From NCBI RefSeq assembly GCF_002117005.1, contig NZ_CP021023.1, positions 2,714,995 through 2,778,994 on the forward strand: a stretch of DNA of 64,000 nt, in the 5' to 3' direction. The stretch is from Sedimentisphaera salicampi. Lineage in GTDB: Bacteria; Planctomycetota; Phycisphaerae; Sedimentisphaerales; Sedimentisphaeraceae. The notes below the pieces were generated by a model. That model was not told where the DNA came from. It did not search any database and saw only the letters and a list, made by a program, of their open reading frames with translations. Of this stretch, positions 33,282 to 64,000 are shown in pieces (the stretch's first letter is position 1; each line of letters begins with the position of its first letter). Both the position numbers and the translations under genes were made by a program.

Positions 33282-34006
33282 ATAAAACAACTCTATTAAA
33301 TCTGCAGCAGCCTGTTTACTGCAAACCAAATTCTATATTCTTTTTTGATTTTGGTGTCATCAATCAGAGTGCAGAAAGATGTAGATTTAACCAATACTGT
33401 GGAGCTGTTAAACAACATCTAAAGCCAAACTAAGTGTATCAAATTCAAATGTTCATTTCAAGCAATTTCTTATTACTTCTTTTGCGGAGGTTCTTTGAGA
33501 GACAATATTTTTGGGCAAAGCTTTTTAAAGCCGAATCTATCCGCTTGTTTTCCGCCTTCGGCGGACAGGCTCTTCGCCTTCGGCGGACTCCACGCACGGC
33601 TCTGATTGTCTTTAGTATTACGCAGCGATTTCACGATACGAAATATTTAAACCGAGCCACGCATGAATCCGCCTTCGGCGGAGGAATAAGTGGACAAAAG
33701 GCAATGAGAAGGGAATAGGCAAAAGTTTTTTTCGCAGAATTTTTACGCTGCCCAGGCGGGCGCTCGCGCAGGTTCGCCCCTACTCGCCAACGAAACCCGC
33801 AGACAAAAAATCCTTAGCGAGTTTTCCGTCTTCGGCGGACTGGCTCAGTGAATAGACAGCAATAAATTCTGCAAAGCATTGCAGCATGATTATTTGCATT
33901 TTGCCGAAAAATAATTCCTCACATCCACCCATGAGTCTAAAATTTACTGGAAATTGAATTGGCGAAATGTATAATTCCGCATTCTAATTTCACAAGAGGT
34001 ATAGAA
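33282..34006. other. gene-free stretch with GC-rich repeat units
   Basis: About 700 bases without a convincing gene. It holds several copies of CCGCCTTCGGCGG-type palindromes (33552, 33575, 33670, and an altered one at 33827) and a 120-bp dispersed repeat (33575-33696). The 94-codon frame at 33434-33718 runs through these repeats and is not considered real. Confidence 0.6.
33575..33696 (+). repeat. dispersed 120-bp repeat with GCCTTCGGCGG ends, copy 1
   Basis: Shared with 61464-61590 in inverted orientation. Common stretches include GACTCCACG..CGGCTCTGATTG, CGCAGCGATTTCACGA, TTTAAACCGAGCCACGCATG and AATAAGTGGACA. The GC-rich palindromes at both sides suggest a MITE- or REP-like non-coding element. 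Confidence 0.75.
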
Positions 34007-35664: not shown

Positions 35665-38600
35665 ATGAATCCCTGCGAAGAGAAAATCATAGAGGCCGCC
35701 CAGTCTGTAAAAGGGCGGATTGTATGCACGGGAAGCTGGGGAGCCTATCCGTCTTGGCTGGCGGGAAGGCTTTCTGAAACGCTTGACCGCCCAATTCTGA
35801 TTGTGCACCCGCACATAGAGGATTCAGACTGCGCAGCCGATGAGATTCACTCCTTCATCTCAAAGCAGCCCATGTTTCTGCCTGCATGGGAAGGCGAGCA
35901 GGATCTCAGCGATTCTGTAGGCGAAACGGCGGCAGAGAGGCTCAAGGCCGCCGCGAAAATCCCAGAGCTTTCAGCAGGTGATGTGATGTGCGCCTCTGTG
36001 CAGGCATTATCCCAGCCTCTGCCCGATCCGGAAGGTCTCGAGGCCGATGCGCTTTCGATAAGCTGCGGGAAAAATCTCGAACCTGAGCTTGCTGCAAGCT
36101 GGCTCGCTGATCAGGGCTATGAGCCCTGTGAAGCAGTGGATGCTCCGGGCGAATTCGCAAAGCGCGGCGGCATCCTCGATATCTACCCGCCCGCTGCCGG
36201 CATCACAGACGCCCAAGGCCAAGAAGAAAAAACAAGGCCGATACGGATTGAGTTTTTCGGGGATGAGGTGGAGACAATCCGATACATCAATCTGGACAAC
36301 CAAACATCCGAGGGGGAGATCCAGAAGGCGGAGATCTATTCACGTATTCAGCCGATGCCCGAAGGCGGATTGAGCGTGTTTGAGCTGTTAAGAAAGGATG
36401 CCGTGATTATCTTTGCAGAGCCATCAGAGGCCTCTGAGGTGCTTCAGGCATACTTGAGCAGGGTATCGGGAAGCGGGAAATACTTCACTTTCAGCCAGAT
36501 TTACAAAGCCGCCTCGGAGCTCTGCCTGATTGAGGTGAGCAGATTCGGCTCGGCAGGCGGGGAGGAAAACCACATCCAGCTTTGCGTTGAGAGCATAGAT
36601 AAATACAAAGCTGAGGCAGGTTCGGTGCTTGAGAAAAGCCAGGAGGCGCTCGGCAGGCTCTGCGAGCAGGCAGAAACCGGCGAGGAGGTACTGCTTTTCT
36701 GCGAATCAGCCGGGCAGATCAAACGAACTAAGCAGCTCATCTTATCCCAGCGAAGCTCTGTGCCGGAAAATCTGCACATAAAAATAGGCTATGTTCGCGA
36801 AGGCTTCTCCAGCAGGCAGGAAGGGCTCACGGTAATAGGTCATCACGAAATTTTCGCACGCGAATTTGTTCGAAGGCGGGCTGCAAGAATTCGAAGGTCT
36901 GCCGGCGTGCATTCGCTTTCGGATCTCGCCTCGGGCGATTATGTAGTGCATCTTACAAACGGCATAGCAATCTACCGCGGCACAAAGATCATCGAGCAGA
37001 ATCAGTGCCCGAGGGAGCATATGATCCTCGAATTCGCAGACGAAGCGAAGATATTCGTGCCTGTGGAGAATATAAGCCTCGTGCATAAGTATATTGGCTC
37101 GGGGGGGATGAAGCCGTCGCTGAGCAAGCTTGGAGGCAAACGCTGGTTCAACCAGAAGAAAAAGGCCTACGATGCTGTGATGGATATGGCATCGGAGATG
37201 CTTGAGCTTCAGGCAAAACGAAACGAGGCAGGGGGCTTTGCCTTCTCGCAGGACTGCGACTGGCAGCGGGAGTTTGAAGATGCATTCCCCTATCAGGAAA
37301 CACCCGACCAGATAAAGGCCATAGAAGAGATCAAGGCCGATATGCAGAGCCCGAAGCCGATGGAGAGGCTCCTCTGCGGTGATGTGGGCTACGGTAAAAC
37401 AGAAATCGCAATGCGGGCGGCGTTTAAGGCCGTTCTCTCCGGCAAGCAGACCGCTCTTCTCGCCCCAACCACAATCCTCACCATCCAGCACGCAAACACT
37501 TTCAGAAACAGGTTTGCCGGCTATCCTGTGCGGATAGAGGTGCTCAACAGATTTATCTCCGCAGGACGGGCAAAAGAGATAATCGAGCAGAGCAGAGCTG
37601 GCAGAATCGACATCCTCATCGGCACACACAGGCTCTTATCGAAAGATATCGCGTTTGCCGATTTGGGGCTTCTGATTATCGATGAGGAGCAGAGGTTCGG
37701 CGTGGAGCATAAGGAGAAGCTCAAAAAGCTCAAGGTGAATGTGGATATCCTCTCGCTCTCAGCAACTCCGATACCGCGCACGCTGCATATGTCTCTTATG
37801 GGCATCCGCGATATCAGCACGCTCTCCACCCCGCCTCTGGACAGGAGAAGCGTTGCAACATCAATCCACCGCTACGACAATTCCCTCATAAAGCAGATTA
37901 TCTCAAGGGAGCTTGCGAGGGAGGGGCAGGTGTTCTTTTTGCATAATATCGTTAAAACAATCGACAAAACCGCAAACCTCCTCCGCGAGCTTTTCCCTGA
38001 TTCGAATATAGCCGTTGCCCACGGACAGATGAACAAAAAGAGGCTCGAAAAGTCAATGCTCGATTTTGCAATGAAGAAAATCGATATCCTCGTATGCAGC
38101 ACGATAATCGAATCGGGCATTGATATACCAAACGCAAATACGATCGTGATAAACAATGCAGACCGCTTCGGCCTCGCCCAGCTCCATCAGCTCCGCGGCA
38201 GGGTGGGCAGGTTCAAACGAAAGGCAAGAGCAGAGCTGCTGATCCCGCCGGACAGACCAATCACACCTGTGGCGGCAAGAAGGCTCAAGGCGATTGAGGA
38301 GTATTCTGAGCTCGGAGCGGGCTTCCAGATTGCGCTGCGCGATTTGGAAATAAGAGGGGCGGGTAATATCCTCGGGGCTGAGCAGTCCGGCCATATAGAC
38401 ACAGTGGGCTATGAGCTTTACTGCCAGATGCTCAAGAATGCGGTAAAGCAGCTCAAAGGCGACCATACTATACCCAAACCAGAAACCTCGCTCAATCTTG
38501 GATTCAGCGCATACATCCCCAAAAACTACATCCCCTCAGATAAGCAGAGGCTCGGGGCATATCGAAAGGCCGCTGAAGCTGAAACGCTTGAAGACCTGCT

Positions 38601-38907
38601 CCTCCTTGAAAAAGAGCTCAAAGACCTCTTCGGCAAGCTCCCAGAGCAGGCTGTCTGGCTGATTGATCTGGCAAAGATTAAGCTCAGGGCATCTGAGAAC
38701 CTGATAGCGAGAATCAAGGCTCAGGGGCAGGATCTCGTGTTCACATTCAGCCCGCAGGCAGACGACTCCAAAGCAGCCGACATCTTCAACAGAACCTCGC
38801 GCAGGGTTACAGCGGTTGACAAGAAGACCGTGCATGTCCGCCTGAGCAAACACCACTTCGAACCGCCCACAATTCTCGCATTCCTCAGAAAGCTTTTCAG
38901 CTGCTGA
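35665..38907 (+). CDS. mfd: transcription-repair coupling factor
   Basis: 1080 residues, slightly short for Mfd (about 1150). The N-terminal UvrB-like part is followed by the CarD-like RNA polymerase-interacting domain (about 415-490, DLASGDYVVHLTNGIAIYRG), the helicase core with Walker A GDVGYGKTEIAMR (about 572), DEEQ in IIDEEQRFG (about 672), SATPIPRTLHMS and RGRVGR (about 850), and the C-terminal TRCF domain. Mfd removes RNA polymerase stalled at DNA lesions and recruits UvrA. Every motif is intact. The next gene begins 94 bases downstream with its own promoter. Confidence 0.97.
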   Translation: MNPCEEKIIEAAQSVKGRIVCTGSWGAYPSWLAGRLSETLDRPILIVHPHIEDSDCAADEIHSFISKQPMFLPAWEGEQDLSDSVGETAAERLKAAAKIPELSAGDVMCASVQALSQPLPDPEGLEADALSISCGKNLEPELAASWLADQGYEPCEAVDAPGEFAKRGGILDIYPPAAGITDAQGQEEKTRPIRIEFFGDEVETIRYINLDNQTSEGEIQKAEIYSRIQPMPEGGLSVFELLRKDAVIIFAEPSEASEVLQAYLSRVSGSGKYFTFSQIYKAASELCLIEVSRFGSAGGEENHIQLCVESIDKYKAEAGSVLEKSQEALGRLCEQAETGEEVLLFCESAGQIKRTKQLILSQRSSVPENLHIKIGYVREGFSSRQEGLTVIGHHEIFAREFVRRRAARIRRSAGVHSLSDLASGDYVVHLTNGIAIYRGTKIIEQNQCPREHMILEFADEAKIFVPVENISLVHKYIGSGGMKPSLSKLGGKRWFNQKKKAYDAVMDMASEMLELQAKRNEAGGFAFSQDCDWQREFEDAFPYQETPDQIKAIEEIKADMQSPKPMERLLCGDVGYGKTEIAMRAAFKAVLSGKQTALLAPTTILTIQHANTFRNRFAGYPVRIEVLNRFISAGRAKEIIEQSRAGRIDILIGTHRLLSKDIAFADLGLLIIDEEQRFGVEHKEKLKKLKVNVDILSLSATPIPRTLHMSLMGIRDISTLSTPPLDRRSVATSIHRYDNSLIKQIISRELAREGQVFFLHNIVKTIDKTANLLRELFPDSNIAVAHGQMNKKRLEKSMLDFAMKKIDILVCSTIIESGIDIPNANTIVINNADRFGLAQLHQLRGRVGRFKRKARAELLIPPDRPITPVAARRLKAIEEYSELGAGFQIALRDLEIRGAGNILGAEQSGHIDTVGYELYCQMLKNAVKQLKGDHTIPKPETSLNLGFSAYIPKNYIPSDKQRLGAYRKAAEAETLEDLLLLEKELKDLFGKLPEQAVWLIDLAKIKLRASENLIARIKAQGQDLVFTFSPQADDSKAADIFNRTSRRVTAVDKKTVHVRLSKHHFEPPTILAFLRKLFSC

Positions 38908-38913
38908 ATTTTA

Positions 38914-38941
38914 TTGACACCGCTCAGGCTTTCAGTACGAT
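38914..38941 (+). promoter_or_regulatory. putative promoter of the prepilin-like gene
   Basis: TTGACA at 38914-38919, 16-bp spacer, TACGAT at 38936-38941, about 60 bases before the ATG at 39002. Confidence 0.6.
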
Positions 38942-39001
38942 ACCCCGCTCAGTTTTTGTGAAACAAAAGAACAAAACCGAATTAAACCGGACTTCAGCAA
39001 T

Positions 39002-39694
39002 ATGCACAAAAAAGGATTCACTTTAATAGAGCTTCTTGTGGTAATAAGCATCATAGCCCTGCTGATGAGTTTTCTGATTCCAGCGCTCGCTGAGGCGAGG
39101 GATGTGGCCAAGCGAACCGTATGCAGCAGCAATCTCAGGCAGATTGCCGCAGGCTCGGAGATGTACACGCAGGACAACGGGCTTGAATATATGGCAGGCG
39201 GAGATCCCCTGCCTTCAGGAGTATGGCTCTGGATGGGGCGGGGCTTCAGGGGATACGTAAAGCCTTATCTCGATAATCAGGAAGGCAGAACGAGCGTTCT
39301 TTCCTGCCCGGGAGACCGCACAGCAGAGAATAAATACGAAGCCACAAGCTACGCATACTCAATGAGCTTCTACCACAGCCCCGAGCAGATCAACTCCATC
39401 TCCAGCGTAGCGGGCACTTGGTCTGGTGAGCTTGAGGCGGTGCCGCAGAAGGCCGGCAGCGCATCGCATCCCTCGCAGAAGATTATGTTCGGCGAGTGGT
39501 ACAGCAATCACGAAGAGATCGAAAGCGGCGACGACGGCGGCTGGTGGTGCTGGGATGGAGCGAGGAATTTCCTCTTCGCAGATACGCACGTGGATTTTAT
39601 TAGAGCAGAAGATCTCGAAACAGCCAATGACGAGCTTCCAGACCCGAACGTTACAAGAAACGGCATCAAAGGCATTGATTACACGGGCAAGTAG
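39002..39694 (+). CDS. prepilin-type N-terminal cleavage/methylation protein (type II pseudopilin-like)
   Basis: 230 residues. [20 protein letters not shown] is a textbook type IV prepilin signal: cleavage after Gly5, methylation of Phe, Glu at mature position 5, then a hydrophobic helix. The C-terminal [16 protein letters not shown] corresponds to the H-x9-DG-type ending of the large planctomycete prepilin-like group, with DTHVDF in the place of DGHV. Cys residues (CSSNLRQ, LSCPGD, WWCW) may form disulfides. These proteins occur in tens of copies in planctomycete genomes and are thought to join pseudopilus-like surface structures. It stands alone between mfd and a rhamnosidase gene. Confidence 0.9.
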
Positions 39695-39945
39695 AGACGC
39701 CTGGTAAGGGGAGGATTGTTCTGGGTTCGGGCAGAGGTTCAGCTTCACCGCGTTCGAGCTTTCAAAATGCTGATTTTTCACCCACTTCTTTTTATGCCTT
39801 TCCGATCTGCATTTGCTTTCAATAACTCACCCGTGGTTGTCTGAGCTTGAGAACCTTTAGAGCTGCTTCTTTGATGTTTGCAATTTATCTTTGATTGGGT
39901 AAATTGTAGTTAAATATTTCAGGTTAGAATCAGGGAAGGTTAATT

Positions 39946-42177
39946 ATGAGCTCCATTTACAAGATGCCGGCCAGCCGGCGAAGGGTATTGTTTTTTGCAT
40001 CATCGTTTCTTTTGATTTTCAGCGCAGGTACCGCTGGGGCGGAGGGTTTCTTTGCCCAGCCCTGCGGGCAGACTGTTGAATACATCCGCGAGCCGGCTGA
40101 AGGCGTGCAGATATCAGACCGAAAGCCCGAATACTCTTGGATTGTCCCGCAAGAGGCGCAATATCAGAAGGCCTATCAGATTATCGTATCCTCAAGCATA
40201 CCAAGCATCAACCGCAGCAAAGGCGATATCTGGGATTCGGGAAAAGTTCTCAGCGATAAGTGTGTAAATATCGAACACGCAGGCAAGTCGCTGGAGCGGG
40301 GCTCTGAATACTACTGGAAGGTTCGCATATGGGACAGCAGGGGGCGGGTTTCGCTTTATTCTCCCGTGCAGAAGTTCGCTGCGGGCGATAGAGGCGAGCC
40401 GGTTTCCACGCAAAATTCCTTTCAGATTGAACATATAGCCCCTGAATCCTCGAAGAAAATCTCCCGCAACACATATTTTTTCGATTTCGCCAGAGCAGCC
40501 TTCGGCTCTGTTACTCTCAAATACCAAACAGAGAAGCACGAAACATTAAAAATAAGGCTCGGCGAGAAAAGCTCCGGCGGCAGGGTGGATACAAATCCGG
40601 GCGGTTCAATCCGCTATAAGCAGGTTGAGATCGAGGTTTCTCCGGGCTGCAGGGAGTATGAGGTTGAGCTCCCCGCAGACACGCGGAACACCGGCAGCCG
40701 TGCAGTGAAGCTGCCCGAATCTTTCGGCGTTGTTATGCCGTTCAGGTATTGCGAGATTATCGGCGCTTCATCTGAAATTACCGAGGATGATATCAGGCAG
40801 AAGGCCTTCTTCTACTACTTCCAAGATAATGCAAGCGCGTTTTCCAGCTCCAGCAAAACCCTCAACAAGGTTTGGCAGTTGTGTAAATATTCCATAAAAG
40901 CCACATCATTCGCAGGCCTGTATGTTGATGGAGACAGAGAAAGAATCCCTTACGAGGCGGATGCATATATTAACCAGCTCAGCCATTACTGCACCGACAG
41001 AGAGTATGCAATGGCCAAACAGACGATCGAGTATTTTATGGATCACCCAACTTGGCCTACAGAGTGGATACTGCATACTGCTATGATGGTTTATCAGGAT
41101 TACATGTACACAGGCGATACCGAGCTGATAGAGAATTATTATGATATTTTAAGGCATAAGAGCCTTATAGCTTTGGCAAGGGAAGACGGGCTTATCTCCA
41201 CTCAGACTGGCAAAGTAACTGATCAGCTCCTGCGGGATATAGGATTCGACCCGGTTCCTGAAAAAGGCCTTGGAGACATCGTTGACTGGCCGCCCGCCCA
41301 GAAAGACACCGGCTGGAAGCTCGCAACCGAGCAGGGCGAAAGAGACGGCCATCAGATGCTGCCGATTAACACGGTGGTGAATGCGTTTTTCTGCAGGAAT
41401 ATGCAGATTATGGCGGAATTTGCCGAGATACTCAATAAGAAAAAAGACCGAAGGCTCTTCACCAGTATGGCTGCGAAGGTGAAAGAGGCGATTAACAGTA
41501 AGCTCTTCGATAAAGATAAAGGGATATACATTGACGGCGAGGGAGCAACGCATTCTTCGCTGCATTCAAATATGCTGCCTTTGGCCTTTGATATTGTGCC
41601 CGAGGAGCATAAGAAGTCTGTGGCGGAATTTGTTGAATCAAGGGGGATGGCGTGCAGCGTTTACGGGGCTCAGTATCTCCTGCAGGGGCTCTTCAAGGCG
41701 GGCAAATCTCAATACGCCCTGAGCCTTATCACAGCCAAAACCGACAGGAGCTGGTGGAATATGATAGAAGCCGGCTCCACAGTAACCCTCGAAGCTTGGG
41801 ACCTGAAGTATAAGCCAAATGCTGATTGGAATCATGCATGGGGCGCAGCGCCGGCGAATGTAATCCCGCGATGGCTATGGGGGATTCGCCCGAACAGTCC
41901 GGGCTTTGAGTCTGTGGTAATCCAGCCGCAGCTTGCAGGTCTGGAGCGAACCAAAATCAAAATGCCCACTATTAGAGGCTCCGTTGAATGCAGCTTTGAG
42001 AAAACCGCCTGCGGCAGGAATTTTTCAATCAAACTCCCCGCAAACACCGACGGAATATTCCGCCTTGATGATATTGAAAATAAGGCTGTTTTCCTGAGCG
42101 GGAAGGAGATTAAGGCAGAAAAGGGGGCTGTTGAAATAAGCGCGGGAAAAAATGAAATAACCATAAAAAACGATTAA
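39946..42177 (+). CDS. secreted alpha-L-rhamnosidase (GH78-like)
   Basis: 743 residues. A signal peptide ends near SAGTAGAEG. The N-terminal Fn3/Ig-like segment reads ISDRKPEYSWIVPQEAQYQK and continues with DIWDSGKV, as at the start of GH78 enzymes. The (alpha/alpha)6 barrel includes YVDGDRERIPYEADAYINQL with the acidic residues of the active site, and EAWDLKYKPNADWNHAWGAA near its end. A C-terminal beta domain follows (GFESVVIQPQL). It would cleave terminal L-rhamnose from plant or algal polysaccharide. The active-site motif is DRERIPYE rather than the commoner DCPQRDERxGW, so it belongs to a diverged subgroup. TTGTTGGGTAA-like promoter sequence was not found; the ATG follows GGGAAGGTTAATT. 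Confidence 0.88.
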   Translation: MSSIYKMPASRRRVLFFASSFLLIFSAGTAGAEGFFAQPCGQTVEYIREPAEGVQISDRKPEYSWIVPQEAQYQKAYQIIVSSSIPSINRSKGDIWDSGKVLSDKCVNIEHAGKSLERGSEYYWKVRIWDSRGRVSLYSPVQKFAAGDRGEPVSTQNSFQIEHIAPESSKKISRNTYFFDFARAAFGSVTLKYQTEKHETLKIRLGEKSSGGRVDTNPGGSIRYKQVEIEVSPGCREYEVELPADTRNTGSRAVKLPESFGVVMPFRYCEIIGASSEITEDDIRQKAFFYYFQDNASAFSSSSKTLNKVWQLCKYSIKATSFAGLYVDGDRERIPYEADAYINQLSHYCTDREYAMAKQTIEYFMDHPTWPTEWILHTAMMVYQDYMYTGDTELIENYYDILRHKSLIALAREDGLISTQTGKVTDQLLRDIGFDPVPEKGLGDIVDWPPAQKDTGWKLATEQGERDGHQMLPINTVVNAFFCRNMQIMAEFAEILNKKKDRRLFTSMAAKVKEAINSKLFDKDKGIYIDGEGATHSSLHSNMLPLAFDIVPEEHKKSVAEFVESRGMACSVYGAQYLLQGLFKAGKSQYALSLITAKTDRSWWNMIEAGSTVTLEAWDLKYKPNADWNHAWGAAPANVIPRWLWGIRPNSPGFESVVIQPQLAGLERTKIKMPTIRGSVECSFEKTACGRNFSIKLPANTDGIFRLDDIENKAVFLSGKEIKAEKGAVEISAGKNEITIKND

Positions 42178-42283: not shown

Positions 42284-42408
42284 GATTTACAGGATGAGAT
42301 AAAGATTTCATATTAAATTTAAATTGGCTTTCTCCATCAAAAGAACTTATCTTAAATCATTAGTGAAAAATTAGTGTAAATTAGCGGCTGAAAAAAATAT
42401 TCCCCTCC
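42284..42408 (+). repeat. direct repeat of about 122 bp, copy 1
   Basis: Matches 42601-42722 almost base for base: GATTTACAGGATGAGATAAA, TTGGCTTTCTCCATCAAAA and TTATCTTAAATCATTAGTGA are common to both. Confidence 0.85.
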
Positions 42409-42477
42409 GCTTCCTCCGCTATCTCCGTGTAAAAAATACAATTTAAACATTGGAGAAGAGTTTGGTATTGCGGTGAA

Positions 42478-42577
42478 ACGTTCTTCCGGCAGAGAGCTTT
42501 CCCTCATTTATGAAAATGTTTTCTCTGATGTAAAAGAGAGTTAAACATCGGAGGAATCGGAGCAATCGGAGGGAGAC
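42478..42577 (+). repeat. dispersed 95-bp repeat, copy 1 (second copy at 61762-61855)
   Basis: Both copies contain CGTTCTTCCGGCAGAGAGCT, AAAATGTTTTCTCTGATGTA and AAAGAGAGTTAAACATCGGA, followed by GGAG..CAATCGGAGGGAGA. Non-coding. Confidence 0.8.
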
Positions 42578-42600
42578 AAGAAATTAGACAGGATTAACAA

Positions 42601-42722
42601 GATTTACAGGATGAGATAAAGATTTCATATTAATTTTAAATTGGCTTTCTCCATCAAAAAAACTTATCTTAAATCATTAGTGAAAAATCAGAGCTGATTA
42701 GCGGCTGAAAAATATCTCCCTC
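42601..42722 (+). repeat. direct repeat of about 122 bp, copy 2
   Basis: Second copy of the segment at 42284, differing at a few positions (for example AATTTTAAATTGG against AAATTTAAATTGG). Confidence 0.85.
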
Positions 42723-42844
42723 CGCTATCTCTCCGCCTGCGTCGGAAAACCCGCTAAAGATTTTTTAAAAATTAACTTGAAATTAACTTTTTTGCTGGTA
42801 AATTTTGAAGAGGAAGAAGATTTTAATTTATCAGGAGTTTTAAA

Positions 42845-55000: not shown

Positions 55001-55029
55001 AAAAAAAGGCAGGCAAATTAATGCCTGCC
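55001..55029 (-). terminator. intrinsic terminator of the capsid-module operon
   Basis: On the minus strand GGCAGGCA pairs with TGCCTGCC around a 6-base loop and is followed by seven T, 13 bases after the stop of the lipoprotein gene. It closes a six-gene operon. Confidence 0.9.
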
Positions 55030-55041
55030 CTGCGCCTTTGC

Positions 55042-55623
55042 TTATTCGGCGGCGTCTTTCACCTGCCGCACGATTTGTTTTGTGGATTTGCTTTGCGCTG
55101 CTTGCGCCTCGCTGAACGGTATTTTCGTATGCGGCTGGTTTTTCTTCATTATCTCATTGCCTTTAACGACTTCCTCAAGGGCCTTTAGTTTCTTTCGTAC
55201 CACAGAAGCCGCAGCAGCTGCCTTTGCGGCACCAGCCCCGCCGAAGATGCCGAAAAGGGCAATCCCCAGATTTATAAGCGGATCGAATAGGCTTCCGCTA
55301 TCCGCTCCAGCGGCTGCCTGAAGCTTTGCTTCTTGGGCAATCAGGCCTGCCGAGCCGGATCTGAGCGAATCGGGGCTCTCCGCGTAAGCGGGTTTCTCCG
55401 GAGTGCCCATAAACTCCGCTACTGCCCTTTGCTGCCTTGATGCAAGAGCCGCAAGCTCTTTGATTTTCTCGCTGCCTTCGGCTTCTGCCTGTTTTTCTGT
55501 GAGTCCGATTGTTTGCCCCAGCAGGTGGGCGTTTTGCTTCTGAACCTCGCCCGGGGCGAGCCTGAAGGCCCCGCAGCCGCCTGCAAATAATGCTGTCAGT
55601 ATGATTACGGTTGATTTTTTCAT
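55042..55623 (-). CDS. small lipoprotein at the end of the phage-derived module
   Basis: 193 residues. FAGGCGAFR is a lipobox (Cys about residue 17). The mature part is rich in Ala, Gln and Glu, with a hydrophobic stretch GIALFGIFGGAGAAKAAAAA near residue 120 and a Lys-rich end. It overlaps the next upstream gene by four bases (ATGA). In phages an outer-membrane lipoprotein beside a membrane coiled-coil protein can be a spanin pair, but this protein is larger than typical o-spanins and its role is unknown. Confidence 0.7.
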   Translation of the reverse strand: MKKSTVIILTALFAGGCGAFRLAPGEVQKQNAHLLGQTIGLTEKQAEAEGSEKIKELAALASRQQRAVAEFMGTPEKPAYAESPDSLRSGSAGLIAQEAKLQAAAGADSGSLFDPLINLGIALFGIFGGAGAAKAAAAASVVRKKLKALEEVVKGNEIMKKNQPHTKIPFSEAQAAQSKSTKQIVRQVKDAAE

Positions 55624-55883
55624 TTGCTCATCTCCTTCTGCATTTCAATCTCGTTTTCTAAAACTGCAATTTCCTCCCCCAGTTCGGCCTGCCTCCTGCT
55701 GAGAACCTCAAATTTCCCAGCGGAGCTTTGCTGCTGGAGCTTTATCATCTCCACATCTTTCTGAAGAGAAGTGATCCTTGTTTGCAGGTCGCTCCATGTG
55801 CCGATTATCAGACCGCCGAGGACGATAAGCTGGCAGGCCGTACGCACTGCCGAGAATATATTTGCCATAGACATAATCCTCAT
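55620..55883 (-). CDS. single-helix membrane coiled-coil protein
   Basis: 87 residues. One hydrophobic helix (about 16-29, QLIVLGGLIIGTWS) is followed by a coiled coil to the end (SLQKDVEMIKLQQQ and RRQAELGEEIAVLENEIEMQ). Start and stop both overlap neighbours by four bases (ATGA), so translation is coupled. It might be an i-spanin- or holin-like lysis protein of phage origin; this is inference from shape and place only. Confidence 0.65.
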   Translation of the reverse strand: MRIMSMANIFSAVRTACQLIVLGGLIIGTWSDLQTRITSLQKDVEMIKLQQQSSAGKFEVLSRRQAELGEEIAVLENEIEMQKEMSK

Positions 55884-56536
55884 CCCCTTTCAAGATCGCC
55901 GCAGGCAAAGCAATATTTCCGCTGTTTGCCTTCGGCATTCTTCATTTCTACAATAAGAGCCTGTTTGCTTCTTTCGAAGAGCTCTTCGTACATCTCCCGC
56001 TTATCTGAAAGCAGAGCCTCATCCGCATCGGGATTGCCGCACTGAGCGCTTAGCATAAGCTGGCAGAGAGTTCCTGCTGCGGCGCAGTTGGCAGCGAGCC
56101 TCTGATCGATAATATCTTCGATGCCAAACTCCGCATCGCTGATTGCAGGCCTTATGCTCATAAGCGAGCAAAGCTCCATCGAAACCGCCTCAATCACCGC
56201 GCTGAAACTTGCAATCAAAAGATTCAGAGAGCCTATGCTGAATAGTTCTTCCGCCTGCATCCCCTGAGCGGCCGGCGGGGCGATTGTGAGCTGGTTTGAG
56301 CCGTCGCAGCTCAAAACGCTGAAATAGCCTTCAAAACCGCTTTCAGGTTCATTCACGTAAACAGCGAAACCTTCCTGAACGCCTGCGGAAATAAAATCCA
56401 CGCCTCCGCAGGTTAGTGAGCTTCCCGATATGCTCGCTCCGCTCCCGCGCACCATTATAAACTGCTCAAGCCCTTCCGCTTTGAATATCCTGCTCTCAAG
56501 GGCCAGAAGGTCGCGGTCTTTGCAAAGCATTGTCAT
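55880..56536 (-). CDS. phage-module protein of unknown function
   Basis: 218 residues. No signal peptide. The N-terminal part (TMLCKDRDLLALESRIFKAE) and beta-rich middle (VRGSGASISGSSLTCGGVDF) are followed by helical segments with several Cys. I do not recognise it. Its position just after the capsid gene is where phages often encode head-completion or connector proteins. It overlaps the next gene by four bases. Confidence 0.65.
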   Translation of the reverse strand: MTMLCKDRDLLALESRIFKAEGLEQFIMVRGSGASISGSSLTCGGVDFISAGVQEGFAVYVNEPESGFEGYFSVLSCDGSNQLTIAPPAAQGMQAEELFSIGSLNLLIASFSAVIEAVSMELCSLMSIRPAISDAEFGIEDIIDQRLAANCAAAGTLCQLMLSAQCGNPDADEALLSDKREMYEELFERSKQALIVEMKNAEGKQRKYCFACGDLERG

Positions 56537-56596
56537 TTTATATCTCCTTGCTTAAAGAGCCGCCCCGAGGCTTTACCCCGAAGCGGCTGGTTGAAA

Positions 56597-57745
56597 TTAT
56601 ACGAGGCCTGTAATGATGCCGTGCGCCTGCTGATTCTTGAGTTCAAGCGTGTATTCACCTATAAGCTCGCCGCGTTCATAGTCCCCGCTGGAGGCCAGCG
56701 GCTTGAAGTGCATACTTCTGCCGGTTAGAGGAAGAACGCTTATCCGCGAGGAATCGAGCAGGAGGATTGTGCCGCTGGGAACCCATCTGGAGAGAATCAC
56801 CCTGCACACGCCGAAATCGCTTTCGTACATCTGAACACCGCTGCGCACTCTGGTTTCCTCCGAGCCGTACCAGCGTGAGCCTTCAAGGAAGGAGTTTATC
56901 CTTCGCTTCTGAGCCCCGCCTGCTACGATCATATCCACATTCCCGCAGCTTTTCTCCCATATCTGACGCAGAGCCCAGTTGAGCATATTCTCAGTGAGCA
57001 CGTCTCCATCCGGAACCTCCTGCGAGCCGGCCTGAAACACGTTTGTCTGAATATGGCGGATTATCCCCTGCATCGTTCTTGCTTCTGAAGCGCTGCCTGC
57101 CGGGGAAGACTGACCCATAGCCCCGTTTATCACGGTATTTTCCAGATCCCTGAGCAGTTCACGAAGACGCATCTGCTTTTGATAGTCCATCTCTTCGGCT
57201 ATGCCGATGTGGTCTGCTGCCATATTAGACCCGCTCACCTCAACGCCTGCGGTGAATATCTGAGTCCAGTTGCCCTGTCTTATCCTGTTTGTGAAGCGGC
57301 TTTCGGGAAAATCTTCGCCTTCCACTGCCGAAGGGCCGATTATATTGATTCTCTGGCCGTCTTCGACTGCTTCAGGAGATGTTCCTCCGTAGCCTCTAGC
57401 AACGTTAAGCGTGCTTCCTGTTTTGCTGGTTATAAGCATCACCTCTGCAGAGCCTTCGAGCTGAATCTGATCGTTCACGCGAAACTTTGAAACATCAGCA
57501 ACATCGAATTCCGGACAGCTTGTGGGCATAGTGATATTCTGATCGTTTACTGCATCACTGTTTGCCAGCAGGCTGTCTTCAAGCCATTCGTGAAATGTGC
57601 TGCGGGCTTCTCGCTGCGGGTCTCCGATTTCGCTGAGCAGAGGCGTTTCATAAGGCGAAACGATCCCGATAATATCAGACACGTCTTCAGCTATTTCAGG
57701 AAGGCCTGTTCCTGCTGAGAAAGCTGCTTTTCCTGTAAAACTCAT
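56597..57745 (-). CDS. SU10-type major capsid protein (DUF5309)
   Basis: 382 residues. The N-terminal stretch IIGIVSPYETPLLSEIGDPQ matches the SU10/DUF5309 major capsid family, where the S-P-x-E-T-P motif is highly typical, and the rest has the length and beta-rich look expected of an HK97-fold capsid protein. The C terminus ends in YTLELKNQQAHGIITGL. It lies after a scaffold-like gene and portal gene. No prohead protease gene is present in the module. It has a normal ribosome binding site (AAGGAGTAAATT). Confidence 0.85.
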   Translation of the reverse strand: MSFTGKAAFSAGTGLPEIAEDVSDIIGIVSPYETPLLSEIGDPQREARSTFHEWLEDSLLANSDAVNDQNITMPTSCPEFDVADVSKFRVNDQIQLEGSAEVMLITSKTGSTLNVARGYGGTSPEAVEDGQRINIIGPSAVEGEDFPESRFTNRIRQGNWTQIFTAGVEVSGSNMAADHIGIAEEMDYQKQMRLRELLRDLENTVINGAMGQSSPAGSASEARTMQGIIRHIQTNVFQAGSQEVPDGDVLTENMLNWALRQIWEKSCGNVDMIVAGGAQKRRINSFLEGSRWYGSEETRVRSGVQMYESDFGVCRVILSRWVPSGTILLLDSSRISVLPLTGRSMHFKPLASSGDYERGELIGEYTLELKNQQAHGIITGLV

Positions 57746-57761
57746 AATTTACTCCTTTGCT

Positions 57762-58163
57762 TTAAAAGTTTGATTTTTCTGATTTCTGCCGGCGGAGCCT
57801 CATATATTCGCTAACTGCTGCGGGCTTGCCGGTTTGGGCTGCTTTTTGGGCAGCTCCGTCGAGCTGGTTTACTGTTTGTTCAGCCGCCTGAGCCACATTG
57901 CTCCGAAACTGCGAGGGCCTGCTTCCGAAAAGATAGGCCTTTTTCTCCTTCAGCCCGCTAACCAGTTCTTCTGGCTTCATTTCGGGATTATGCTTTTGTT
58001 TCTCTCTGCAAAGTGCGAGCCCTGCATCAAGATCAATAATCCCATTTTCAGCGAGCGATCTGGCAGCCTGATTTTCAAACTTCAGCCGTTCGTTCTCAGC
58101 TTTGAGCTTCCCGCTGAGTTCGCTGCCGCCATCCGGCGGATTGTTTTGGTTCTTCTCTTCCAT
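57762..58163 (-). CDS. scaffold-like phage protein
   Basis: 133 residues, charged, with an N-terminal coiled coil (LSGKLKAENERLKFENQAAR) and a basic C terminus (EYMRLRRQKSEKS). This composition and its place between portal and capsid genes fit a head scaffolding protein. No sequence motif proves it. Confidence 0.65.
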   Translation of the reverse strand: MEEKNQNNPPDGGSELSGKLKAENERLKFENQAARSLAENGIIDLDAGLALCREKQKHNPEMKPEELVSGLKEKKAYLFGSRPSQFRSNVAQAAEQTVNQLDGAAQKAAQTGKPAAVSEYMRLRRQKSEKSNF

Positions 58164-58211
58164 GATAAATCTCCTGCTTAACTGTAATTATTAGATTTTG
58201 AGGCCGGCGAT

Positions 58212-59597
58212 TCAGCCCGTTTTCTCTTCCGAATAAGCCTTAAATTCGCTAAAGACCTCCTCCTCTGGAAGCCCTGCCTCTTTCTTGAGGATAGCTTCAT
58301 TAAGCTTATCGGTAGTGTTTTCGGGCAGAGGATCGGCAAACACGACCTCCACTTTCCTTTCTTCTTCGCTGGTTTTAACGATGCCTGCTGCATCAAATGC
58401 AAGCAGTAGCTTGCGGCAGAGCTGTTTTATTCCGTCGCCGTAAGCGGCTTTCCTGCGTTCATTTTTGCTGAGCATCCCCATAAGCGTCATTTTCAGGGCA
58501 ACCGCGCTGGATAGATTCCCGATTTTTCCGCGTATCACCCCGGCGGCCAGCGGGGTTACTCCGCTTATCTTGTCCATTGCTGCACGTATCTGGTCTATGT
58601 GGCTCTCCTCGCCGGGGCAGGCGGAGTCTCCCCCGAACTGTTCAATGGTGGCATCCTGATTCCAAGTGTGCCAAATTCGCCCAGGCATAATCTCTTTTGG
58701 GCCAGGGTCTTCAAGGCCTTTGGCCAGATAGAGCTTGAAAGACTGCATCGTAACGCGGAATGCCCTGTCGCTCAGGCGGGTGTTCAGCTCGTCCTGCAGG
58801 GCTATAAGCTCCGCTACATCGCTTGCGCCCTCATAGCTCTGCGGACGGCTGATGTTTTGTATGTGTACCACCGGCAGCTCTGGAATCCGGCAGGGCAGTT
58901 CGCTTACAAGCCGGCCGTTGTGAAACCGCTGGAGAAGCTCGGGGCTGAAAAGCTCTGTTACCTGAATCTGTTTTCGAGTTATCCCGCCTGCCCCAGAATT
59001 TCCGGCCTGATTGACGTCCATGCGGAAATTCTGCAGATAGCAGTTGATTCTGCCTGAATCGCCTTCCTCAAGGATGGGCAGAGCCCTTTCAGCTGGCACA
59101 AGATCCAGCTTTATGTCTCTGGGGGCGGAATTTTTCTCGAAGAGCCCTTCAAGACGCAGAAGGATATCAACAAAGCCGTACACGCTGCCCAGAAGGGCGA
59201 GGCTCATAAAGAATTCACTCCCGCCGTTTGCCTCAAAAACCTCGTTTAGAAGCGATTCGATTCGGCGGCCTTTATTCCTGCTTTCTGAAAGGCTTTTGAT
59301 TCGAATCTGCCTGCCGAAGAGGAAATCGTTCATCGAATTTATTCGCCAGCCGATGTCGTTTTCGATTACGATCTCCTTTTGTCTGATTCCCTTCTCTGAA
59401 TTGCCACGGATACGTTCTGGGAGGCCTTGAATTTGTGCCTGCTGCATTTGGCCGGCGGCAGAGTTGTATCTGCGGTTGCTGTAATACTCGTAGAGCCTGC
59501 GGAATTCTCTCGCTCTTGCCGGCTGGTATTTTTCTATCAGCCAGCGGAGGAAATCAGCGTTTACTCCGCAGCCGAGCTTTGAAAAATCAAATTCCAT
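58212..59597 (-). CDS. phage portal protein (SPP1 gp6-like)
   Basis: 461 residues. KYQPARAREFRRLYEYYSNR near the N terminus, NDIGWRINSMNDFLFGRQIR in the clip/wing region, and SGVTPLAAGVIRGKIGNLSS with SAVALKMTLMGMLSKNERRK in the later helices resemble the SPP1/gp6 portal family. The portal is the dodecameric ring through which DNA enters the head. No terminase gene lies upstream, as would be expected in a complete phage. The start ATG has AGGAGAAGGAAAA before it. Reading frames in the module show no damage. Confidence 0.8.
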   Translation of the reverse strand: MEFDFSKLGCGVNADFLRWLIEKYQPARAREFRRLYEYYSNRRYNSAAGQMQQAQIQGLPERIRGNSEKGIRQKEIVIENDIGWRINSMNDFLFGRQIRIKSLSESRNKGRRIESLLNEVFEANGGSEFFMSLALLGSVYGFVDILLRLEGLFEKNSAPRDIKLDLVPAERALPILEEGDSGRINCYLQNFRMDVNQAGNSGAGGITRKQIQVTELFSPELLQRFHNGRLVSELPCRIPELPVVHIQNISRPQSYEGASDVAELIALQDELNTRLSDRAFRVTMQSFKLYLAKGLEDPGPKEIMPGRIWHTWNQDATIEQFGGDSACPGEESHIDQIRAAMDKISGVTPLAAGVIRGKIGNLSSAVALKMTLMGMLSKNERRKAAYGDGIKQLCRKLLLAFDAAGIVKTSEEERKVEVVFADPLPENTTDKLNEAILKKEAGLPEEEVFSEFKAYSEEKTG

Positions 59598-60181
59598 TTT
59601 TCCTTCTCCTAAAATTGTCCTCTAAAAACAGGGCTCAAAAAAAAACCCCTTTCACCCTAAGGGCTGATGTTAATCTTTTGCGCGGAAAATTTTCGATTTG
59701 ATGAGAATTAGAGGTTCTGTAAATGCCTGATTAGCAGGAGGTAAGGGAATTTTAATCTTTTTTCATTTTTTCCTCTTCTTGATCGCAGAAAAGGCCTTTT
59801 TAAGGGTCGTTTAATGAGAAAAGCAGATTTATTCTTGATGCGTGGCAGAGCTGCAAGTCCGCCTGCGGCGGATAGCGAGTGGCAAAATCAGGACTTGACA
59901 TCATTAGTGAAAAATTAGCGGGGATTAGCGGTTAGTAAATCCTTAGTGCTGCTTAGCGCTGCTTAGTGGCTTATAAATCTCAGTGCTGATTAGCGGTTAG
60001 TAAATCCTTAGTGCTGCTTAGCGCTGCTTAGTGGCTTATAAATCTCAGCGGGGATTAGCGGCTAAAAAATTTTCTCTCCGCCTTTTCCTATATTAAATAT
60101 TTATCCTGTGAATCCTTGCCCCGTAGCCAAAGCGGTTCGGGGCTGTTAATCCTGTCAAAAAAATATCTCCCCTCTGTGCCC
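59598..60181. other. gene-free region before the IS110 element, with tandem repeats
   Basis: No gene is seen. From about 59838 it consists of short dispersed units, a 65-bp tandem repeat (59923-60052) and an 86-bp unit (60098-60183) that is shared with 61875-61961 and continues directly into the IS110 left end. Confidence 0.65.
59923..60052 (+). repeat. 65-bp tandem repeat, two units plus a partial third
   Basis: Units start at 59923 and 59988, with a partial one at 60053. Each contains GATTAGCGGTTAGTAAATCC, TTAGTGCTGCTTAGCGCTGC and TTAGTGGCTTATAAATCTCA. Units are nearly identical. Confidence 0.9.
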
Positions 60182-60183
60182 CT
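60098..60183 (+). repeat. dispersed unit shared with 61875-61961 (left part of the IS110 target)
   Basis: TATTTATCCTGTGAATCCTT, GCCAAAGCGGTTCGGGGCTG and AATCCTGTCAAAAAAATATC occur in both copies with few differences. In the other copy the sequence continues with CCCCTCTGTGTTCCTCTGTG without interruption; here the IS110 element is inserted after CCCCT. Confidence 0.9.
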
Positions 60184-60409: not shown

Positions 60410-61393
<984 letters not shown>

Positions 61394-61463
61394 ATACTTG
61401 ACTTTTAACACAGTCACTCTGTGTTCCTCTGTGGTTAATATATATCTTTTCCCTCCGTACTGC

Positions 61464-61590
61464 TGTCCACTTATTTCGCCCCGCCTGCGGCGGGCCTACA
61501 TGCGTGGCTCGGTTTAAACATTAGTTTCGTGAAATCGCTGCGAAATACTAACGTCAATCAGAGCCGCACGTGGAGTCCGCCGAAGGCGGA
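61464..61590 (-). repeat. dispersed 120-bp repeat, copy 2 (inverted relative to 33575-33696)
   Basis: Reading on the minus strand: TCCGCCTTCGGCGGACTCCA, CGGCTCTGATTG, CGCAGCGATTTCACGA, TTTAAACCGAGCCACGCATG and AATAAGTGGACAG match copy 1 in the same order. The two copies differ at scattered positions. Confidence 0.75.
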
Positions 61591-61761
61591 AAGCAAGCGG
61601 ATACATTCGTAGCTCGTAGCAAAATCATTAGTGAAAAATTAGTGTTGATTAGTGGCTGAAAACATCTCTCTCATATTTTTTTCCTCTCCCCTCCGTTTCC
61701 TCCGTTTCCTCCGTGTAAAAAAAACTGTCCAACATCAGAGCAGGATTATGTATTGCTTTTA

Positions 61762-61855
61762 AGCGTTCTTCCGGCAGAGAGCTTTCCCTCTCATTTATAA
61801 AAATGTTTTCTCTGATGTAAAAGAGAGTTAAACATCGGAGCAATCGGAGGGAGAG
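61762..61855 (+). repeat. dispersed 95-bp repeat, copy 2
   Basis: Partner of 42478-42577. It is followed by the same GCAATCGGAGGGAGA end. Confidence 0.8.
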
Positions 61856-61874
61856 AATGATATATCACATTTAA

Positions 61875-61982
61875 ATATTTATCCTGTGAATCCTTGCCCC
61901 GCAGCCAAAGCGGTTCGGGGCTGTAAATCCTGTCAAAAAAATATCTCCCCTCCGTGCCCCTCTGTGTTCCTCTGTGGTCAAT
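61875..61982 (+). repeat. uninterrupted copy of the IS110 target unit
   Basis: Matches 60098-60183 and then continues through CGTGCCCCTCTGTGTTCCTC, so it shows what the IS110 insertion site looked like. It differs from the occupied site at one base of the left target (CGTG for TGTG). Confidence 0.9.
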
Positions 61983-62046: not shown

Positions 62047-62427
62047 TTACAGAACAAGGCTTTCCAGCCCATTTCTCAGGTGAGTTACGTTGAAATTCAG
62101 CAGCAGCCCCTTATTTATGCCGGCGAGCTTCATATATGACAGCAGCTGCGCTTTATGTATTTCTTTTAGCTCTGAAATGCTTTTTAGCTCAACAATTATC
62201 TTATCCTCAACCATAATATCTATCCTGTAGCCGCAGTCGAGCCTGCAATCTTTATATACTACTGGCAGCGGCTTTTCCCTCTCAAAACTGATGCCGTTAA
62301 TGTGCAGTTCATGGCAGAGACACTGATTATATGCTGATTCTAAAAGCCCGGGACCTAACACACTATGCACATTCATCGCGCATCTAATAACCTTCTCTGA
62401 AAGCTCTCCATGTTTTAAGACACTCAT
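62047..62427 (-). CDS. GxxExxY family protein
   Basis: 126 residues. GPGLLESAY is the name-giving G-x-x-E-x-x-Y motif (about 27-35). The core, FEREKPLPVVYKDCRLDCGY followed by RIDIMVEDKIIVELK, has the Asp and ExK arrangement of a PD-(D/E)XK nuclease-like fold (PDDEXK_3), and QLLSYMKLAGINKGLLLNFN ends it. The family is widespread in planctomycetes and Bacteroidota and often lies alone between repeats; its function is not known. Here both sides carry the inverted-repeat elements, so it may be carried with them. Confidence 0.92.
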   Translation of the reverse strand: MSVLKHGELSEKVIRCAMNVHSVLGPGLLESAYNQCLCHELHINGISFEREKPLPVVYKDCRLDCGYRIDIMVEDKIIVELKSISELKEIHKAQLLSYMKLAGINKGLLLNFNVTHLRNGLESLVL

Positions 62428-62449
62428 AATAACCTCAATTAAAAAAAAA

Positions 62450-62531
62450 CCTCTGTGCCCCTCTGTGTTCCTCTGTGGTCAATTTCTTTTTTTTCTACCA
62501 CTGAGGGCTCGGAGGATCACGGAGGAGGATT
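62450..62531. repeat. inverted-repeat element, copy b, with an empty IS110-type target
   Basis: Same structure as copy a. Its left arm contains TGTGCCCCTCTGTGTT, identical to the reconstructed IS110 target, with the CT core at 62461-62462. Confidence 0.75.
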
Positions 62532-62551
62532 AATATATTATATTTAAAAAA

Positions 62552-62625
62552 CCTCTGTGCCCCTCTGTGTTCCTCTGTGGTCAATATATATCTTTTCTCT
62601 CCGTGGTTAATATATATATTTCCCT
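62552..62625. repeat. partial copy c of the inverted-repeat element
   Basis: Only the CCTCTGTG-side arm is present, including another exact TGTGCCCCTCTGTGTT (core CT 62563-62564). It is followed by a TATATATCTTT stretch and CCGTGGTTAATATATATAT. Confidence 0.65.
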
Positions 62626-62647
62626 CTGCGGCGGATGTTTTTTCTGG

Positions 62648-63277
62648 TTAGCTGAAGTATGCCCTTACTTTGTTTCCTGCTCTTTTGGCCATAACTCCCA
62701 GTGCCCCAACCCCGAACATCAAAGCAGTCATTGGTTCCGGGACTACTTCGTATTGGTGCATAGGAGAGTAAAAGTCTCTTCCGAAAGTTCCTCCTTCTTG
62801 TCCAACAAAAGCATTCTGAACTGCTGTATCTCCCAGAACTATTCTTGCATCAGTTTCTGGATCGTAACCTTCGATTCCATCTGTTTCTAATAACGATGTT
62901 GGAACTGAAACAGTTAATGCTAAATCATTTGTTGCGGAGTCGGATGTCCATTCATCGTAATCAAATCCAGCCCAACCAGCATTATGATTCAAACTTAATC
63001 CGCCTTGGCTGTCCTTAGCTGCATTCCAGCCATTGTAAACTTCTCCAGTTGGGGGATTCATAATAGAAGTTTGTAGTTCATTTACTATATCTTCAACAGT
63101 TTTACCTGAATTACAACCTAATTCACATAGTTGTTGTGCTAAATCTCCAAAAATACCTTTATCAAATGTTGCAGAATTGTATATTGCGCCTGGATCGTTG
63201 TTTGTAGCAGTTAAGTTTAAATAAACATTGCTACCTCCTGCTGGAAAATTCTGTGAGTTTTGATTAACATAAGCCAT
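62648..63277 (-). CDS. PEP-CTERM sorting-domain protein lacking a visible signal peptide
   Basis: 209 residues. The C terminus, VVPEPMTALMFGVGALGVMA followed by KRAGNKVRAYFS, is a PEP-CTERM signal: VPEP, a hydrophobic helix and basic residues; it directs exported proteins to exosortase. The N terminus, MAYVNQNSQNFPAGGSN, has no signal peptide, which such a protein needs, so the 5' part is probably lost or the start misplaced. The middle is Asp/Asn-rich with no known domain. The next copy to the right shares its last 95 residues nearly unchanged. Confidence 0.7.
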   Translation of the reverse strand: MAYVNQNSQNFPAGGSNVYLNLTATNNDPGAIYNSATFDKGIFGDLAQQLCELGCNSGKTVEDIVNELQTSIMNPPTGEVYNGWNAAKDSQGGLSLNHNAGWAGFDYDEWTSDSATNDLALTVSVPTSLLETDGIEGYDPETDARIVLGDTAVQNAFVGQEGGTFGRDFYSPMHQYEVVPEPMTALMFGVGALGVMAKRAGNKVRAYFS

Positions 63278-63379
63278 TGCTGCCCGCCTTTACAATTACT
63301 CTCGCCGCAAAAGTTTTCGGTTAATATACACGTTCCGCTCCATTATATGCTTTTAGTCTTCAACTCCAAGCTTTTTGTT

Positions 63380-63435
63380 CCCTCTGCGCAATTTTTTTTC
63401 TACCACTGAGGAATCGGAGGATCACGGAGGAGGAT
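63380..63435. repeat. inverted-repeat element, copy d (shortened)
   Basis: CCCTCTGCGCAATTTTTTTT followed by CTACCACTGAGGAATCGGAG and GATCACGGAGG: the same arms as copy a with a shortened left side. Confidence 0.65.
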
Positions 63436-63456
63436 TAATATATTATATTTAAAAAA

Positions 63457-63560
63457 CCTCTGTGCTCCTCTGTGTCCCTCTGTGGTTAATATATATATCT
63501 TTTGTCTGCGTGCTTAATGTTTTTTTACCACTGAGGGCTCGGAGGATCACGGAGGGGGAT
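63457..63560. repeat. inverted-repeat element, copy e
   Basis: Left arm CCTCTGTGCTCCTCTGTGTC and right arm ACCACTGAGGGCTCGGAGGA. The loop region holds TTAATATATATATC and CTGCGTGCTTAATG. Confidence 0.7.
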
Positions 63561-63664
63561 TTATAATTTTAAATTCATAATTCATATTTTATTACCTCCG
63601 TGCCCCTCTGCGAGCCTCCGTGGTTAATATATATCTTTCCCTCTGCGGCGGATGTTTTTTCTGG

Positions 63665-64000
63665 TTAGCTGAAGTATGCCCGTACTTTGTTTCCTGCTCT
63701 TTTGGCCATAACTCCCAGTGCCCCAACCCCGAACATCAAAGCAGTCATTGGTTCCGGGACTACTTCGTATTGGTGCATAGAAGAAGGAATATCAAATCCT
63801 GTTGTAGTAACTCCAACAAAAGCATTCTGAACTGCTGTATCTCCCAGAACTATTCTTGCATCAGTTTCTGGATCGTAACCTTCGATTCCATCTGTTTCTA
63901 ATAACGATGTTGGAACTGAAACAGTTAATGCTAAATCATTTGTTGCGGAGTCGGATGTCCATTCATCCATATTTCTATCCCCATTATGATTCAAACTTAA
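63665..64000 (-). CDS. second PEP-CTERM protein copy (5' end outside the window)
   Basis: The frame is open to the window edge (LSLNHNGDRNMDEWTSDSATND is read in parts from 64000 downward), so the gene continues beyond 64000. Its last 95 residues are nearly identical to those of the copy at 62648, including VVPEPMTALMFGVGALGVMA, with one divergent patch (VGVTTTGFDIPSS against VGQEGGTFGRDFYSP). The tandem offset is 1017 bp, and the downstream sequence is also shared, so this is a recent duplication. Confidence 0.8.
   Translation of the reverse strand, partial: LSLNHNGDRNMDEWTSDSATNDLALTVSVPTSLLETDGIEGYDPETDARIVLGDTAVQNAFVGVTTTGFDIPSSMHQYEVVPEPMTALMFGVGALGVMAKRAGNKVRAYFS

Follow-up and report, generated by a model that had tools for sequence, protein, structure and literature searches.

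A phage-derived capsid operon and a separate terminase locus in Sedimentisphaera salicampi: a probable GTA-like DNA-packaging system

Known GTAs have tails. Their formally classified families come from Alphaproteobacteria and Brachyspira, and in the alphaproteobacterial type I agent, RcGTA (Rhodogtaviriformidae), head and packaging genes are kept in the host genome, inherited vertically, distributed over several loci and conserved over the long term (PMC9662315). The locus described here, from Sedimentisphaera salicampi (Planctomycetota; Phycisphaerae), resembles RcGTA in these respects; however, it belongs to another phylum, encodes an SU10-type capsid, depends for its terminase on a separate operon and shows no recognised tail genes. 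A further likeness is found in BaGTA of Bartonella and BhGTA of Brachyspira, which represent independent domestications of tailed phages, and the large terminases (TerLs) of the three known GTAs are themselves 14–20% identical to one another (PMC9662315). A 2024 review pointed out that new GTAs are hard to find since they resemble defective prophages (PMC11841831). In the titles and abstract openings of the papers searched on Planctomycetes, Planctomycetota and Phycisphaerae, no GTA description was found.

The nearest sequenced phages share 22–31% identity with the capsid, portal and TerL proteins of the system. SU10-type phages such as Sporosarcina phage Lietuvens and Bacillus phage phi18-2 have capsids of the same SU10_MCP family, but these are complete phages, and their capsid identity is at most ~31%. 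The IMG/VR viral contig L032 carries relatives of both TerL and capsid (35% capsid identity) and is a possible viral cousin, although its two genes are linked in a longer phage-like gene array, unlike the arrangement found here. In contrast to the phage values, capsids of distant hosts inside the class are 50–60% identical. Together with the vertical trees and the selection described below, this difference in identity argues for a phage-derived, domesticated system. With a probability of roughly 0.78, the operon supplies the head module for such a system, vertically inherited, GTA-like and split between loci, with DNA packaging as its activity. The host genome does hold phage-derived head, portal and terminase genes, one of the properties by which a GTA is judged; the system is reduced, in that no tail genes were recognised, is known here from its genes, and is therefore termed GTA-like rather than filed as a GTA.

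The capsid operon and its surroundings

Within the window, that is, the whole 64,000-nucleotide stretch of the S. salicampi genome (G000) that was analysed, an ORF check of the sequence confirmed six intact frames, all on the minus strand, at 59597–55042 (Table 1). This agrees with the original prediction, in which six intact genes in one direction, several of them overlapping by ATGA, had been described; the overlaps join the last three genes, encoding the 218-, 87- and 193-aa proteins, and the strong terminator placed behind them was recovered as well.

Table 1. Features of the capsid operon, and repeats near the capsid and terminase loci (window positions unless marked L103)
Feature	Position	Strand	Remarks
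Portal protein gene	58212..59597	-	461 aa; SPP1_portal PF05133, phrog_64
Scaffold-like gene	57762..58163	-	133 aa; weak PF06810; lies between the portal and capsid genes
Major capsid protein gene, SU10/DUF5309 type	56597..57745	-	382 aa; PF17236
Probable head-completion/adaptor gene	55880..56536	-	218 aa; position only
N-terminal membrane segment and coiled-coil gene	55620..55883	-	87 aa; weak phrog_1863
Lipoprotein gene	55042..55623	-	193 aa; signal peptide with lipobox
Intrinsic terminator	55006..55031	-	10-bp stem, 6 GC pairs, T run
Leader/promoter region	59598..59768	-	G295 alignment ends at 59768; genus-conserved
Repeats near the loci	59923-60183, 61417-61961, 42284-42726, 33569-33916; L103 2600-3600, 14500-17000		

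Alignment with the same-genus genome G295 ran end to end over window 55001–59768 (83.7% over 4.77 kb) and broke off at both ends of this stretch, so that the unit can be delimited as the operon together with a leader of ~170 bp and the terminator. Conserved blocks are visible in the leader; no clear leader motif common to the whole order was found, and a candidate motif upstream of the portal gene, promising to the eye, did not outscore shuffled sequence at a length of 14 bases and did so only slightly at 18. The GC content of the operon is 51.9% versus 46.1% in the rest of the window, and a second GC-raised stretch (50–53%) lies at window 36000–42000.

The operon flanks differ even between same-genus genomes. 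An IS110-family transposase gene (DEDD_Tnp_IS110 and Transposase_20) is situated at window 60413–61393, in an AT-rich stretch ~0.8 kb upstream of the portal gene. Apart from it, no mobility genes were seen directly beside the capsid or terminase locus, and no integrase was recognised in window 50–64 kb or beside TerL. A PDDEXK_3-family nuclease-like gene is found at window 62047–62427, followed at 62444–64000 by duplicated genes with 82% identical DNA and PEP-CTERM-like protein ends (weak matches, below cut-off), while in the sister genome G295 an FHA-domain gene comes after the lipoprotein gene on the same strand (L104 13065–13970).

The portal and DUF5309-type capsid that had been proposed for the operon were both borne out by matches well above family cut-offs, with PF05133 (E 4e-17) and the PHROG portal family phrog_64 (E 7e-24) in the first case and SU10_MCP PF17236 (E 1.5e-85) in the second. 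The scaffold-like gene has a weak match to Phage_scaffold PF06810 (E 0.015) that falls short of the curated cut-off; its profile family is present in 40 loci, and its place in the operon is kept in relatives. For the 218-, 87- and 193-aa proteins, no clear family emerged from Pfam-type and PHROG profile searches. The 218-aa product is probably a head-completion or adaptor protein, a role read from position, with its gene lying directly 3′ of the capsid gene in most relatives; its AF2 model (pLDDT 42) was too poor for use. The last two genes do encode, as anticipated, a membrane coiled-coil protein and a lipoprotein, the latter with a visible lipobox. The 87-aa protein matches phrog_1863 weakly (E 2e-4) and some lysis families more weakly still, and a TM-coil protein at the same position closes the operon in relatives, so that it is a candidate for a lysis function, as holin or inner spanin, or for a membrane anchor. 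Homologues of the 193-aa lipoprotein, a candidate outer spanin or anchor, close the operon in G295, G127, G142, G157, G209 and G289. No protease or endolysin was identified for the system.

Distribution, terminase and inheritance

The host genome forms one contig of 3.19 Mb, in which the capsid gene is present in a single copy. A block found only once had been named at the outset as the sign of a plain prophage remnant, and the survey gave the opposite outcome: of 150 genomes sampled from the class, 72 carry the capsid, nearly always as one full-length intact copy, and of the 23 from the window's order, 20 do, host genome included. Across the phylum it was found in 35/246 genomes, concentrated in Phycisphaerae and in the family f27. 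Capsids of the class are mostly 49–63% identical to that of the host, and the identity reaches 91% within the genus. Since half of the sampled class is without the capsid, the system is either dispensable or often lost. The capsid gene is truncated or split in G185, G220 and G246. In G185 a stop was also flagged inside the TerL match, capsid and terminase both being damaged, which suggests that the two are decaying jointly.

The absence of a terminase, claimed in the original prediction, holds for the window and fails for the genome, where a TerL gene lies at G000:C1:2083151-2084518, ~686 kb from the capsid operon. It was found with the TerL of the relative G127 as query and had been missed by the generic TerL profile phrog_2. 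The TerL carries Terminase_6C/6N domains and gives a profile match to solved large-terminase structures. In most of the order's genomes, a TerL profile detects a frame of ~500 aa. ATPase and nuclease residues are common to six aligned TerLs of the order; additionally, Walker A, in the form searched, was recognised in most of 30 TerLs, G000 included, the rest being fragments or variants. The Terminase_3 profile gave a single match, in G157, to a different terminase. The G127 query has matches in 91 of the 150 class genomes (83 strong, G000 among them), and the terminase is present in 22/23 genomes of the order. Capsid and strong TerL occur together in 70 of the 150 class genomes, the capsid alone in 2, TerL alone in 13 and neither in 65 (Fisher p 1.7e-26), which means that the terminase accompanies 70/72 capsids.

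Upstream of the G000 TerL are found genes for a sigma-like HTH protein, an ABC ATPase, a GNAT-like protein and a 124-aa product, as well as rpiB. The 124-aa gene is a small-terminase candidate because a relative of it precedes a TerL in the viral contig L185. The ABC ATPase and GNAT-like genes (L103 7303–8668) precede the terminase in several relatives too; they match successive parts of one PHROG profile, phrog_11143, and in some relatives they are apparently fused as one longer gene. Short interspersed repeats, 75–97% identical, lie near both the capsid and the terminase operons (Table 1), and these might have separated the two loci.

Trees of capsid, TerL and RpoB were built for 25 genomes with FastTree only, RpoB being the sole host marker. 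The TerL tree has 17/22 splits in common with the RpoB tree (Mantel r 0.86) and the capsid tree 11/22 (Mantel r 0.79), while label shuffles never gave more than 2 common splits. Both genes have been inherited vertically with the host; however, as the agreement between capsid and RpoB is partial, some transfer between lineages is possible. Between G000 and G295, dN/dS is 0.105 for the portal, 0.104 for the scaffold-like gene, 0.087 for the capsid, 0.079 and 0.084 for the genes of the 218- and 87-aa proteins, 0.133 for the lipoprotein and 0.093 for TerL, and dS is 0.60–1.11 in the operon versus 0.62 in RpoB. In six other close pairs, dN/dS ranges over 0.036–0.092 for the capsid and 0.083–0.149 for TerL. 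Purifying selection thus acts on the terminase as well as on all six genes of the operon, and the initial argument that intact frames speak against decay is strengthened by the range of 0.079–0.133 across the block.

Gene orders in relatives and tail-side genes

Neighbouring terminase and tail genes in relatives had likewise been proposed as a pointer to a plain prophage remnant. A neighbouring terminase and putative tail-side genes were found in some relatives, but these belong to the same vertically inherited family, and the order is likely ancestral. In G252 and G260, TerL lies directly before portal, scaffold and capsid, and this is the arrangement regarded as likely ancestral; in G315 it comes after a short capsid operon, and in G295 the TerL operon is ~10 kb from the capsid operon. 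In G289, G375, G346, G323 and L188, the 218-aa gene is separated from the membrane/lipoprotein pair by three genes called c1, c7 and c6, and also by c12 where the sequence reaches. The position after a tape-measure gene and a small gene is the usual place of tail-hub genes, and in the viral contigs L189 and L192 a relative of c12 follows a tape-measure-like gene, recognised by eye, and a small gene. From these positions we infer that c1, c6 and c12 are putative tail-side genes. PHROGs gave no annotation for the c12 neighbours in the viral contigs, neither c12 nor c1 obtained a reliable match when profiles were searched against the PDB, and the structure model of c12 (pLDDT 44) was too poor to define it.

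The c12, c6 and c1 profiles match in f87 (except G369), in f88, in G289 and in G323, and gave no match in G000, G295, G127, G142, G209, G283 and G310, nor in G057, G316 and G369; the host's own genus and family are thus without a match. In G157, weak c12 pieces only were detected, on other contigs, and in G002 (family f4) c1 is present, with c6 and c12 absent; f93 genomes show a similar reduction. The reduced forms keep portal, scaffold, capsid and terminase, and usually the membrane-coil and lipoprotein pair. Set against the host tree, these profile absences suggest several independent events, in which the putative tail-side genes would have been lost repeatedly.

Proposed mechanism and alternative explanations

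In the proposed mechanism, the capsid and terminase operons would be switched on together, a scaffolded procapsid would assemble on the portal, and the terminase would pack chromosomal DNA into it. The 218-aa protein would close the portal, the membrane coiled-coil protein and the lipoprotein could help release, presumably by lysis, or anchor the heads, and DNA might finally be transferred to other cells. Co-regulation finds no support in the sequence, since the conserved leaders of the capsid and terminase operons have no common word of at least 8 bases. Additionally, packaging of all of the system's own genes in one head is implausible because the two loci are so far apart (~686 kb).

As a sub-case of the domesticated-head explanation, tail-less heads could pack DNA without injecting it and serve to transfer it, to export it when the cell lyses, to protect it, or to fill some other role in the cell. 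This version can be held tentatively, at somewhat less than even odds. It is consistent with the empty c1, c6 and c12 profiles in G000, G295, G127, G142, G209, G283, G310, G057 and G316, with the similarly reduced f93 genomes and with the portal, capsid, adaptor-like gene and terminase remaining under selection. However, the placing of c1, c6 and c12 on the tail side is itself conjectural, the structure models are too poor to define c12, and unrelated tail genes may lie elsewhere. If it is true, the selected function would be independent of injection into a recipient. The repeated tail-side absence opens to testing the long-standing question of what the host gains from particles if not injection.

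Among the options listed in the original prediction, a gene-transfer-like particle or a host-used capsid is supported by vertical inheritance, selection and the co-occurring terminase, and a decayed prophage or phage satellite is disfavoured by the single copy, the class-wide presence, the host-like trees and the purifying selection. Phage-type genes without a full phage, and damaged copies in relatives such as G185, G220 and G246, are what would be expected of an integrated phage whose operon is drifting after the loss of tail, terminase and lysogeny functions. This account is nevertheless very unlikely, considering that all six genes are under purifying selection, that a single intact copy is found across many genera, that the trees track RpoB and that a matched terminase exists elsewhere in the genome. 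RpoB-like trees combined with purifying selection make a decaying or recently arrived prophage a poor fit, and this candidate was rejected because recent insertion, patchy presence and relaxed selection were not found, nor an integrase in window 50–64 kb or beside TerL. An active or satellite mobile element spreading by transfer, either a capsid-forming satellite or an undescribed temperate phage, would explain why the flanks differ within the genus and why repeats occur close to both loci, and the full operon is present on the IMG/VR contig L188, which may itself derive from a host genome. Such an element is very unlikely, as neither an integrase nor a replication gene was seen beside either locus, the trees are host-like, dS equals that of host genes, there is one copy per genome, and the position beside argS is fixed in f27. 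The capsid-forming satellite in particular was rejected on vertical inheritance and on the lack of a recognised integrase beside the two loci.

An encapsulin-like protein compartment made from the capsid would likewise have a host-retained shell whose protein belongs to a phage capsid family. However, the portal, the scaffold-like gene and a terminase with conserved motor motifs, all of which are kept, are needless for an enzyme compartment, and the operon is without a cargo enzyme gene. This reading is very improbable, and it was rejected on account of the portal in the operon and the co-inherited terminase.

Returning to the domesticated packaging system, a class-wide head-plus-terminase system together with a related one in f27 would widen the range of domesticated phages. 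In f27, a family outside the class, the operon has a divergent portal and related scaffold and capsid genes and lies beside argS in nine genomes, and a TerL of the same family is found at a separate place in 10/12 genomes. The f27 system may go back to an ancestor at the level of the phylum or to a transfer long ago.
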